47,676 nucleotides of DNA. Source: Ktedonobacteria bacterium (lineage in GTDB: Bacteria > Chloroflexota > Ktedonobacteria > Ktedonobacterales > JACDGC01). Positions 18,456-22,272 of this stretch are shown here, one piece after another; the first letter of the stretch is position 1; the number at the start of each line of letters is the position of its first letter. The stretch lies in the NCBI GenBank assembly GCA_027459705.1, contig DAIDHM010000007.1:1-47676 (forward strand), written 5' to 3'. A program made the translations under genes and the position numbers. Under the pieces are notes generated by a model. It did no database searches. It saw only the letters and a list, made by a program, of their open reading frames with translations, and was not told the DNA's origin.

Positions 18456-19574
18456 ATGCCGAAACATATGGAAGAAGACCCTGCACCGGGCCACCCGGCG
18501 GATCGTGCGGAGATCGGGCGTCGATTACATCTCGTGGCGCGGCGCATGAATGAAACGATTTATGGTCATGGCTTGCCCGCTGGCATCCTACCACCTCTGC
18601 GCCGGGCATTGCGCCATCCCGCCTGCCTCCTGGGGCGCGAGGTCGCCATGGGGCACCCCTGTGACCTCAACGATCTCTGGCTGCCAGCCACGCACGTTCT
18701 GATTGCCCATGCCACCCTCAGTCGGACTGATCAGCCGGGGTGCGCGCTGGGCCGTTGGCGCATGGCGGCACCGCTGGGCGCCGCAGTCGAGTTCGCGGCA
18801 CTGGCCGATATACTCAATGAAGAATTGGGCCGTGGTCACTGCCCCCATGCCCAGGCGTGTGGTGAATGGGTCACCCTGCAGATTATCCTGATCCTCACCG
18901 CGCTGGCCCAGCGTGCCCTGCACCATCCCCAGGTACCCCCGACGCTCGCCGCGCCGCTCGCGGAGGCATTTGCCCTCGCCAGTAGTCGAGGCGCATTCTT
19001 ACTACACCAGGCATCCCTCATACACCAGCGACTGCCACATGGTGGCGAACTGCTGGAGACGCTGGCACAGCACCGCGCCCTGATCATACAATTGGCGTTA
19101 AAGGTTGGTATGCAAGTCGCCATAGAAACGAGTGGGAATCCGAACACGCTGCCAGGCACTGGCAGCACGTCCCACCTGCCGGTCATTGATCAAACCGAGG
19201 AATCGCCGGATAGCCTGGTGCTTCAGTGGGCCAGTGATCTGGGTCTGGCATTCGGGCAATGGCAACTATCAGAGGCGCCAAGCCATCCGGCGGAGACCTC
19301 CGAGGGGCGAACGCGCGCGCGTCCTGCCCACCGTTTCGTACAAACGAATCTCGGACATTTTCCCACCGATTGGAATGAACAGGTAGTTGGAGTACGCGAA
19401 CGCGGCCGCCATCTCGCCACCCGTGTCGTGGCCACTATGCAACGACGCACCGCCGCCGGGTGGCCCGGTGCCGCCGGGTGGCCCGGTGCCGCCCAGGTGC
19501 CCGGTCCCGCTACGTGCCGCTGGTTGAGTTGGATTCTGCAAGAGGAGGTGCTGGCGCATGCGCAGCGGCTCTAA
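18456..19574 (+). CDS. Putative degenerate polyprenyl-synthase-like (ComQ-like) protein
   Basis: 372 residues from ATG 18456 (AAGGAG at 18440-18445). The frame is open to 18030, but that part is antisense to ribBA. It is all-helical, with segments such as AAPLGAAVEFAALADILNEELGRGH and GEWVTLQIILILTALAQ that sit where class I polyprenyl synthases have the Glu-rich helix and the first DDxxD. No aspartate-rich motif is present, so it would not be a normal prenyl transferase. The gene overlaps a ComP-like kinase by 17 bases, the layout of comQ-comP pairs. Two copies of a GC-rich repeat are inside it (18483-18501 and 19453-19506), the latter adding AAGWPG units near the C-terminus. The homology is tentative and the gene itself is well supported. 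Confidence 0.5.
   Translation: MPKHMEEDPAPGHPADRAEIGRRLHLVARRMNETIYGHGLPAGILPPLRRALRHPACLLGREVAMGHPCDLNDLWLPATHVLIAHATLSRTDQPGCALGRWRMAAPLGAAVEFAALADILNEELGRGHCPHAQACGEWVTLQIILILTALAQRALHHPQVPPTLAAPLAEAFALASSRGAFLLHQASLIHQRLPHGGELLETLAQHRALIIQLALKVGMQVAIETSGNPNTLPGTGSTSHLPVIDQTEESPDSLVLQWASDLGLAFGQWQLSEAPSHPAETSEGRTRARPAHRFVQTNLGHFPTDWNEQVVGVRERGRHLATRVVATMQRRTAAGWPGAAGWPGAAQVPGPATCRWLSWILQEEVLAHAQRL
18483..18501 (-). repeat. Dispersed GC-rich repeat, inverted copy
   Basis: Read on the minus strand it is CCGCCGGGTGGCCCGGTGC, identical over 19 bases to the tandem copies at 19453. The core CCGGG-TGG-CCCGG can fold into a short hairpin. Confidence 0.7.
19453..19506 (+). repeat. Dispersed GC-rich repeat, three tandem 18-bp units
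   Basis: Two perfect units CCGCCGGGTGGCCCGGTG (19453-19470 and 19471-19488) are followed by a degenerate third (19489-19506). Eighteen bases keep the frame, so they encode AAGWPG, AAGWPG and AAQVPG near the end of the synthase-like protein. The same sequence occurs at 18483 (inverted) and 23080. Confidence 0.75.
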
Positions 19575-22272
19575 CTGGCAACAGTTGCGTTTTCAGAGAC
19601 ACGGTGACCCCAACCAAATTCCGCCATCGTCAGCTCCCAGCAACACCTCGCCAACCAGGCCCTATTGGTATCGCCAAATCCTGGCGACGGTCATCATTGG
19701 TTCGCTCGGATTGATCATTGTCATTGGTGTGGCAAACTGGGCCACGCTTTCTCCGCAACTCCATCTGGTAGGTAATGTCGTAGGTTGCGGCACAGGCCAT
19801 TGCCGCTGGCAGATCACCCAGGCCCCGACGATCGACACGATGTATGATCAGCGCTTGCGCTCCGGGGAGATCATCTGTTCATACCGTATCAACCACCAAT
19901 GGACGGCAATTACGCCACAGACCTCCGCGCGAGTATTCGATCATTCGAGCCAATTGCTCATCATGCCCGCACCGGTGGGTGGGGTGTCGTCATTAACCTT
20001 CGCTGGTAGGGGAGAGCTGCAAACATGCGCGCAAGGATCGACTGTCGATCTCAGGCCCACACCATTGCTCGCCGTGATCTTTGATTTTGCTATTGCCTTG
20101 ATCTCAAGCGCGTTGGCTATCGCCATCGTGCTCCACGCGACCGGAAGGCCAGATGCTCCTGAAAAGCCCGGAGCTACCGATCGACGCCTGGCGGCGCTGG
20201 CGGTTTCGGCAATGGTCGCATTGGTATTCGCGTTTGCCTGGCTGCCTGGCGCGGGTGTCAATGCACCGCTTTTCAGTCTGATAGAAACAGTTGCGGCAGT
20301 CGCCTGGGCTCCCGTCATCTTGATCCGATTGCTCTGGTATATCCTGATAGATCCCCAGAAGCAGCCAGATCTGCGGCGCTGGCGCCGCTGGATCTTTACC
20401 ACTTCTACCCTGGCCGCCCTCAGTATCAGCACAATCCAGATCGCGCTTGTGGGAAATTCAATCGCCGACCCCAATTGGTGGAGAGTGGTCGTCGATACTT
20501 ACATGATTGCCATCTATGGTCTGACCCTCGCGCTTGTAGTCGCAGGGAACCGCAGGCATATCACGGCGCAGCAGAGCGAGTACGCGCGTATTCTTGGTAT
20601 CGCGGTTGCCATCAGTATTCTGCCGCTGGTCTGTTTCTCGATATTACCCGCGTTCATCCTGGCTCTGATGCATAGGGACAGCCAGGTATTCCTCGATGCC
20701 GGGCAATTTTTGGCACTCAGTGTGATCGCCTTCCCCATAGCCCTGGCTTTCATCATTCTGCGCCGCTCCCTGCTGCCTGTCGACTCACTCATTCGCCACT
20801 CCATCGAGCGCGCTTTGAGCTTGATTGCGTTAACCTTGCTCGCAACCCTTGAGATCGGCCTTGGTCTCCACGTGTTTGGCTCCTCCCAGGTCCACGACCC
20901 AGTCGTCGTCGCGACTGCTTTGATCACGCTCATCCTGACCGCACTCATCAGTCCGCTGATCATGCGCGCGATGGCATGGGTGACCACGACCTGGCTCTTT
21001 CCAGAGGTACGTCGCTACCGCGCGCTCCTCCGGCTGGCCGCGACACACCAGGGGCGCGAGAGCATTGAAGACCTGGCCATCACATTGATCGGCGAGATTA
21101 AGCTGGCGTTGCCGGTGCGCGATGTCGCGATCTTTCTGGGTGATCGCCAGCGGGGCTATTTTCAGTCTATCGCCGGCAGCAATGCTCCGATGACTTTTGA
21201 GAGTCTCCATCCGCTCATCGTGGCCCTGAGCGCCGCGCACAGCGCGACCACCTATCCGTTGCCGATCGATCGCCTTGCCGTTTGTGATGGCAAACTGGTC
21301 ACCTGTGGGCCGGATGAACTGGCCTGCCTCTGGGCATTATATGTCCCCATCCGCTTGCAAGATACGCTGGTCGGAATCATTGCGCTGGGGCCACGTGACG
21401 ATGGTTTCCCCTTCTCGAAGACGGATAAAATACTCCTGCGCGATCTGGCTATGCAGCGGGCGCTCGCCTTTGATTACGCGCGGGTCGTTGCCGAATTACA
21501 GGCAGCCAATGCCAATCAACGCGAATTAGATCATCGTAAAGACCAATTCATTTTGACGCTCCAGCACGAGTTGCGGACACCTGCGACCGGGTTCCTCGGC
21601 TTTCTGGACATTCTGCGCGATATGGGTCCGGAAGGGTGGCGATCCTCCACCGACGAAGCGCACTATTACGTTGAACGAGCGTTTCAGGCGGCCGAATCTT
21701 TGAAACGATTGCTGGATGCCTTAGGCAGTGCGGATCCACTAGCGGGCAGCGATGCGCCGCTGCACCTCGAGCCTGTGAAATTGGGGCCAGCAATCCGCAC
21801 GGCCGCCAGCACGGCGGCGCTGGCGCATGCGGCCGATCTTCATCGCTTGCATATGCACTGTCCGGATGATCTGCTGGTCCGCGCGGACGCGCAGGCACTG
21901 GCACGCATCATTCATAATCTGGTCACCAATGCCCTGAAATATTCACCGCCAGAATCCGAAGTGCGGATTTCCGCACGGAGACGCGCGGAACAATCCCTGG
22001 TGGATATCACGGTCGCGGATCATGGGGCTGGGGTCCCCCCGCCGCAGCAATCCCAGATTTTCGCGCGTTTCGTTCGGCTCGAACGAGACGCCAATAGCAC
22101 GGTGCGCGGTACCGGATTGGGGCTCTATGTTGTCCGGACGTTGGTTGAGGCACACGGGGGACGGGTGTGGGTTGAGAGCACCGGCATCGCAGGCGAAGGA
22201 TCGCGTTTTCACTTCACGTTGCCGTTAGCCGAAATGGCACAACCAGACCCCCATGCGCAGGTCGAACCATGA
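19558..22272 (+). CDS. ComP-like sensor histidine kinase with about ten TM segments and a GAF-like domain
   Basis: 904 residues from ATG 19558, with AGAGGAGG nine bases upstream and a 17-base overlap with the preceding gene. TM1 is at about 41-62. A roughly 105-residue outside loop with cysteines 77, 82, 107 and 157 follows, then about nine more TM helices to residue 480. A GAF-like domain (about 500-640) includes LACLWALYVPIRLQDTLVGIIALGPR. The kinase core has phospho-acceptor His670 (LQHELRTPATGFLGF), N box N787, G1 VADHGAGVPPP and G2 GTGLGLYVV, all intact. Architecture matches large multi-TM kinases of the ComP type. No response regulator is adjacent, so its target lies elsewhere. The signal, if coupled to the upstream gene, may be an isoprenoid-type molecule. 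Confidence 0.88.
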   Translation: MRSGSNWQQLRFQRHGDPNQIPPSSAPSNTSPTRPYWYRQILATVIIGSLGLIIVIGVANWATLSPQLHLVGNVVGCGTGHCRWQITQAPTIDTMYDQRLRSGEIICSYRINHQWTAITPQTSARVFDHSSQLLIMPAPVGGVSSLTFAGRGELQTCAQGSTVDLRPTPLLAVIFDFAIALISSALAIAIVLHATGRPDAPEKPGATDRRLAALAVSAMVALVFAFAWLPGAGVNAPLFSLIETVAAVAWAPVILIRLLWYILIDPQKQPDLRRWRRWIFTTSTLAALSISTIQIALVGNSIADPNWWRVVVDTYMIAIYGLTLALVVAGNRRHITAQQSEYARILGIAVAISILPLVCFSILPAFILALMHRDSQVFLDAGQFLALSVIAFPIALAFIILRRSLLPVDSLIRHSIERALSLIALTLLATLEIGLGLHVFGSSQVHDPVVVATALITLILTALISPLIMRAMAWVTTTWLFPEVRRYRALLRLAATHQGRESIEDLAITLIGEIKLALPVRDVAIFLGDRQRGYFQSIAGSNAPMTFESLHPLIVALSAAHSATTYPLPIDRLAVCDGKLVTCGPDELACLWALYVPIRLQDTLVGIIALGPRDDGFPFSKTDKILLRDLAMQRALAFDYARVVAELQAANANQRELDHRKDQFILTLQHELRTPATGFLGFLDILRDMGPEGWRSSTDEAHYYVERAFQAAESLKRLLDALGSADPLAGSDAPLHLEPVKLGPAIRTAASTAALAHAADLHRLHMHCPDDLLVRADAQALARIIHNLVTNALKYSPPESEVRISARRRAEQSLVDITVADHGAGVPPPQQSQIFARFVRLERDANSTVRGTGLGLYVVRTLVEAHGGRVWVESTGIAGEGSRFHFTLPLAEMAQPDPHAQVEP

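Follow-up and report, generated by a model that had tools for sequence, protein, structure and literature searches.

The two overlapping genes at positions 18456 to 22272 of the window, the 47,676-nucleotide stretch of Ktedonobacteria DNA analysed here, are probably (roughly 0.72) a degenerate descendant of a precursor-prenyltransferase-sensor locus, in which a receiver kinase stands beside a pseudo-prenyltransferase and the locus does not make its own signal. This reading draws on homology, fold, synteny, motif loss, an undetected precursor and branch lengths. Loci that comprise a precursor, a synthase and a sensor are common in Ktedonobacteria and recur in other Chloroflexota.

Gene organisation of the locus

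The synthase-like gene (18456-19574, + strand) encodes a 372-residue protein, which homology, fold, alignment and codon usage place in a ComQ/PalQ-like synthase family without catalytic motifs. A likely ribosome-binding site, AAGGAG (18440-18445, +), is located 10 bases 5´ of the ATG at 18456. A start at Met31 was rejected, given this good site and homology that begins at about residue 15. The gene shares 17 bases with a sensor histidine kinase gene (19558-22272, +), whose likely ribosome-binding site GAGGAGGT (19542-19549, +) lies within the synthase-like gene. The synthase-like gene contains an 18-bp tandem repeat of 3.3 copies (19452-19510, +) towards its 3´ end. There is no room for a further gene between the synthase-like and kinase genes of the window, and no ComA-type response regulator adjoins the kinase; the next gene is on the opposite strand. 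The inspection of open reading frames together with domain and hydropathy analysis confirms the layout described in the sequence-only reading, namely a 372-residue synthase-like gene that overlaps a ten-TM kinase by 17 bases.

The kinase comprises 904 residues with ten transmembrane (TM) segments predicted from hydropathy, a GAF-like stretch, a HisKA domain (PF00512; 21538-21723, +) with an HELRTP box and a HATPase_c domain (21886-22230, +); its catalytic domains are intact. The region between TM1 and TM2 (19735-20073, +) is predicted to be extracellular and aligns with the PDZ-like regions of relatives. The PDZ matches are weak and occur in relatives only, and the PDZ-like label is taken from them because a fold search with the model of the window sensor returned weak helical-bundle matches only. 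The same-family genome G004 carries a second kinase with this type of sensor region and without an adjoining synthase (L036:3982-6504). At several Ktedonobacterales loci (L042:4894-9256 and matching loci), a conserved sigma-factor-like gene is located 3´ of the kinase on the opposite strand, and a short MarR-like ORF lies in the gap between them.

Homology and predicted fold of the synthase-like protein

The 372-residue protein has no match in Pfam, NCBIfam or the PDB sequences, and PF00348 misses it even at E<=10. In a single-sequence search, the protein has a match in a same-family genome (E=7e-9). A profile that was made from intact relatives and excluded the window matches the ORF at E=5e-5 over model positions 9-151 only, the best score among 1,096 window frames. 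The synthases of all five relatives tested match PF00348 (4e-15 to 6e-21), and on the evidence of the single-sequence and profile searches the window protein is homologous to these PF00348-positive relatives.

Residues 13-225 gave a confident structure prediction, the best PDB structural matches of which are trans-isoprenyl diphosphate synthases (Foldseek, probability 1.00); the input alignment of the model contained intact synthases, which calls for caution in reading the match. The predicted fold is that of a trans-isoprenyl diphosphate synthase. The likeness to a synthase that had been noticed from the letters alone is upheld by this model and by the profile homology, and the structure prediction proposed at that stage returned a fold related to isoprenoid synthases. 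The C-terminal third is poorly predicted and poorly aligned and contains the 18-bp tandem repeat; its identity to the two nearest relatives is 13-14%, compared with 40% between those two over this part. A role as a housekeeping synthase was rejected because two canonical polyprenyl synthases are encoded elsewhere in the genome. The GKRxRP and RRG stretches present in canonical Chloroflexota copies are absent from the relatives' synthases.

Loss of both active-site motifs

At the position of the first Asp-rich motif (18807-18830, +), the window protein has DILNEELG where relatives have DxxDDxxD, and NEELG thus replaces DDxxD, which reads DDVQD, DDVED, DDLVD or similar in relatives. This motif is intact in 18 of the 21 aligned family members, and both it and the second motif are retained by nearly all paired synthases of the window's taxonomic class. 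In enzymes of this group, the FARM aspartates have a reported role in coordinating the metal and the donor (PMC10853753, PMC13290415). The second motif position (19257-19331, +), where relatives show QLxNDxxD followed by KSDxxRxKKTLP, is unrecognisable in the window protein. One criterion for trans-IDS-like Trp prenyltransferases (PMC13290415) is a Gln that immediately precedes the second Asp motif, together with the first Asp of that motif; relatives have QLxND at this point, and the window has at best QLSEA. A profile search detected no remnant of the second motif in any frame of the window, and a frameshift concealing an intact copy was rejected on that ground. The earlier observation that the active-site aspartates are missing is therefore correct.

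Conserved pairing and precursor peptides in the class

A synthase gene followed by a kinase gene on one strand, with gaps of -19 to +150 bp, was found at 18 loci of the class, the window included. G040 adds one more, so the window pair has 18 companion loci, and the conserved pairing that the sequence-only reading had asked about is present. The named carriers are Ktedonobacteria, including Thermogemmatispora and Ktedonosporobacter strains. Exceptions are G019, in which synthase and kinase lie apart, and G038, in which the kinase is alone. G006 and G019 contain synthase copies that are short or broken, and G044 and G040 are also among the partial or broken copies. Truncated or broken synthases at L077:5231-6115, L089:5181-6083, L087:4257-5075 and L088:4565-5152 in other Ktedonobacteria display an in-frame stop, loss of the second motif or fragmentation. 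Partial loss of the enzyme has therefore occurred more than once.

A short ORF ending in Trp lies upstream of the synthase in 17 of the 17 class relatives with readable upstream DNA (G002, whose contig begins inside the synthase, falls outside this count). These ORFs comprise 51 to 96 codons with at least one Trp among the last few residues, and many have one to three residues after the Trp. For several there is a weak match, below the Pfam cut-offs, to Nif11 or Frankia_peptide leaders. Six genomes that are closely related, several bearing the name Thermogemmatispora, give a dN/dS of roughly 0.05-0.3 for the ORF, and by this measure the precursor ORF is under purifying selection in Thermogemmatispora-type genomes. 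Since 12% of short ORFs end in Trp by chance, counting such ORFs would by itself be weak evidence, and independent profiles were used. A profile for which only out-of-class precursors were used detects 11 of the class precursors, those of G004 and G007 among them. The class profile, which was largely built from the 17 class precursors, detects every one of them. The least certain class precursors are those of G034, G006 and G040.

The corresponding position in the window is the gap beside a divergent ribBA-like gene (18260-18455, +), and no precursor was found there or elsewhere in the window. The out-of-class profile returned nothing in the window, the class profile had no hit at E<=10 in the genome to which the window belongs, and the Nif11 and Frankia_peptide families gave nothing above cut-off in that genome. 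The ORF at 18337-18549 (70 aa, ending in SWRGA) was rejected as a precursor because of its non-coding codon usage and lack of a match to the precursor models. The ORF at 18244-18330 (28 aa, ending in GPLWII) overlaps ribBA and leaves no room for a leader. The precursor models were applied to window ORFs of at least 30 aa, none of which matched; the 28-aa ORF is below this limit. The assembly is 95% complete and in 245 contigs, so a precursor elsewhere in the genome could be missed.

The sequence-only reading had offered a non-peptide or a degenerate signalling pair. Its statement that no pheromone gene fits between the two genes holds, and none was found in the window or the genome, but relatives carry such a gene upstream of the synthase. 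A kind of system that works without a peptide is not supported, given the Trp-ended precursors and intact synthases of relatives. The degenerate form is supported by the loss of both catalytic motifs and by the failure to find a precursor in the locus or the genome. The ancestral locus would have held three genes, for a precursor peptide, a tryptophan prenyltransferase and a membrane sensor. By analogy with PalXQP and ComQXP, the enzyme of intact relatives would attach a prenyl group to a Trp at the end of the precursor, which bears a leader, and the resulting lipopeptide would be exported and read by the adjoining sensor. The peptide-enzyme-sensor set of the relatives looks like a quorum-sensing system.

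Related sets in other Chloroflexota

A search of 400 Chloroflexota genomes, the best candidates of which were read out, revealed a precursor upstream of the synthase at seven loci outside the class (L143, L144, L148, L154, L156, L157 and L162). One subgroup has a Trp-ended ORF with a weak match after the synthase (L153:992-1228, L155:5595-5831 and L167:6201-6437), which is the gene order of Bacillus comQXP. No precursor could be recognised for the Chloroflexota pairs of G119, G196 and G224. An N-terminal PDZ-like region and TM segments are common to the sensors, which differ in their output domains: L148 ends in a hybrid HisKA kinase, and L147 in a HisKA_3-like kinase that is followed by a response-regulator-like gene. 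The precursor-synthase-sensor sets at L143 (4766-8251) and L144 (2370-6865) end in HD-GYP and in HD-GYP plus GGDEF, respectively. Their domain composition suggests a peptide signal that is wired directly to c-di-GMP turnover.

State of the synthase-like gene and alternative explanations

With no precursor found and both motifs lost, the window locus is most likely unable to produce a signal of its own. In matched trees, the synthase branch of the window is about four times as long as that of its sister G004 (3.72 versus 0.95), whereas the kinase branch is not longer (1.00 versus 0.95). The kinase has been kept and has evolved at the sister's pace, and we infer from this conservation that it most likely works as a receiver. 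The window would have retained this receiver and the shell of the enzyme, and the kinase may sense the lipopeptides of neighbours or another ligand. The loss of motifs and precursor together is seen in one genome only, which leaves some room for assembly or sampling error.

The synthase-like gene could be a decaying passenger that is open only through translational coupling to the kinase and because the loss is recent, a tentative explanation to which we give less than an even chance. Its very long branch, the loss of both motifs, the degraded C-terminal third and the partial or broken copies in G044, G040, G006 and G019 all fit such decay. The gene nonetheless has a good ribosome-binding site of its own and runs for 372 codons without a stop despite its divergence, and both of its halves show coding-like codon usage, if somewhat weaker than in the other genes. 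In neutral simulations that start from the present sequence, with substitutions only and a comparable loss of identity, 3 of 300 runs stayed free of stops, which argues against long neutral decay, although coupling to the kinase could contribute.

The same open frame, simulations and codon usage, together with the well-predicted N-terminal helical core and the overlap with the kinase gene, would also fit a dead synthase fold that works as a non-catalytic partner, one that tunes the kinase and binds to it, to a prenyl diphosphate or to a peptide. According to this proposal, which is a stronger form of the degenerate-locus reading and compatible with it, once the pheromone gene had been lost, the prenyltransferase turned into a protein that is co-translated with the receptor kinase of that pheromone and serves it as a regulatory or ligand-binding partner. 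We consider it possible but rather unlikely: this state is not shared by any relative, the poorly aligned and poorly predicted C-terminal third carries the repeat, and the overlap and the kinase's ribosome-binding site could keep the frame open even if the protein did nothing.

It is improbable that the system is complete, with a precursor that is too divergent or in unassembled DNA and an enzyme with an unusual active site. The incomplete assembly and the pairs of G119, G196 and G224 would allow for it. However, one search recovers every class precursor and none in the window's genome, the 70-aa upstream ORF does not behave as a coding precursor, and the FARM aspartates have their reported role in coordination. 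That the kinase was served by a free isoprenoid signal from the synthase, as the lack of a peptide gene between the two genes in the class might hint, is very hard to reconcile with the conserved Trp-ended precursor beside the synthase in relatives and with a window protein that has no Asp motifs.

Comparison with known systems

One of the closest known systems is PalX-PalQ-PalP from Paenibacillus alvei (Miyata et al. 2023, PMC10853753), which, by its published description, shares with the relatives a Trp-ended leader-type precursor, a DDxxD enzyme of the synthase fold and an adjoining histidine kinase. The relatives differ in gene order, in phylum and in the one to three residues that often trail the Trp, and HD-GYP or GGDEF domains can serve as outputs elsewhere in Chloroflexota. 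The window has the adjoining kinase but neither the leader precursor nor the catalytic motifs. PalQ does not tolerate residues after the Trp, whereas ComQ-type enzymes do; as many precursors here have such residues, the exact chemistry is uncertain.

In comQXPA of Bacillus subtilis and other Firmicutes (PMC4008528), an enzyme of the synthase fold also lies beside a sensor whose N-terminal domain has about ten TM helices, a feature that the window shares. A Trp-containing precursor is encoded in the same locus there and in the relatives, although that of the relatives carries a Nif11-like leader and is encoded upstream of the synthase. The comQXPA kinase contains HisKA_3 (PF07730) and HATPase_c, that of the window HisKA and HATPase_c, and class loci have no response regulator gene directly 3´. 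Of the comQXPA features, the window lacks the first Asp-rich motif, a ComX-type precursor, HisKA_3 and an adjoining ComA-type regulator. Canonical geranylgeranyl and farnesyl diphosphate synthases (PF00348) have the fold in common with the window protein; the relatives retain the Pfam match and DDxxD, and the window protein has neither the Asp motifs nor the Pfam match. With the trans-IDS-like Trp prenyltransferases (ComQ, PalQ and ChrPC), it shares the predicted fold without the Gln-Asp signature of the second motif.

Implications

The PalQ papers do not mention Chloroflexota, a KEGG-based survey noted only a ComP-ComA pair in Chloroflexi, and the open-access journal literature searched contains no report of such peptide signalling in Chloroflexota or Ktedonobacteria. 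The relatives suggest that a prenyl-tryptophan peptide signalling family is spread through Chloroflexota, whereas the 2014 comQXPA census had no locus outside Firmicutes (PMC4008528). Within this family, one type of sensor region is fused to kinases or directly to c-di-GMP domains. The window would represent a natural case in which a receptor kept its kinase after the loss of signal and enzyme, and it bears on how such systems decay or are rewired.
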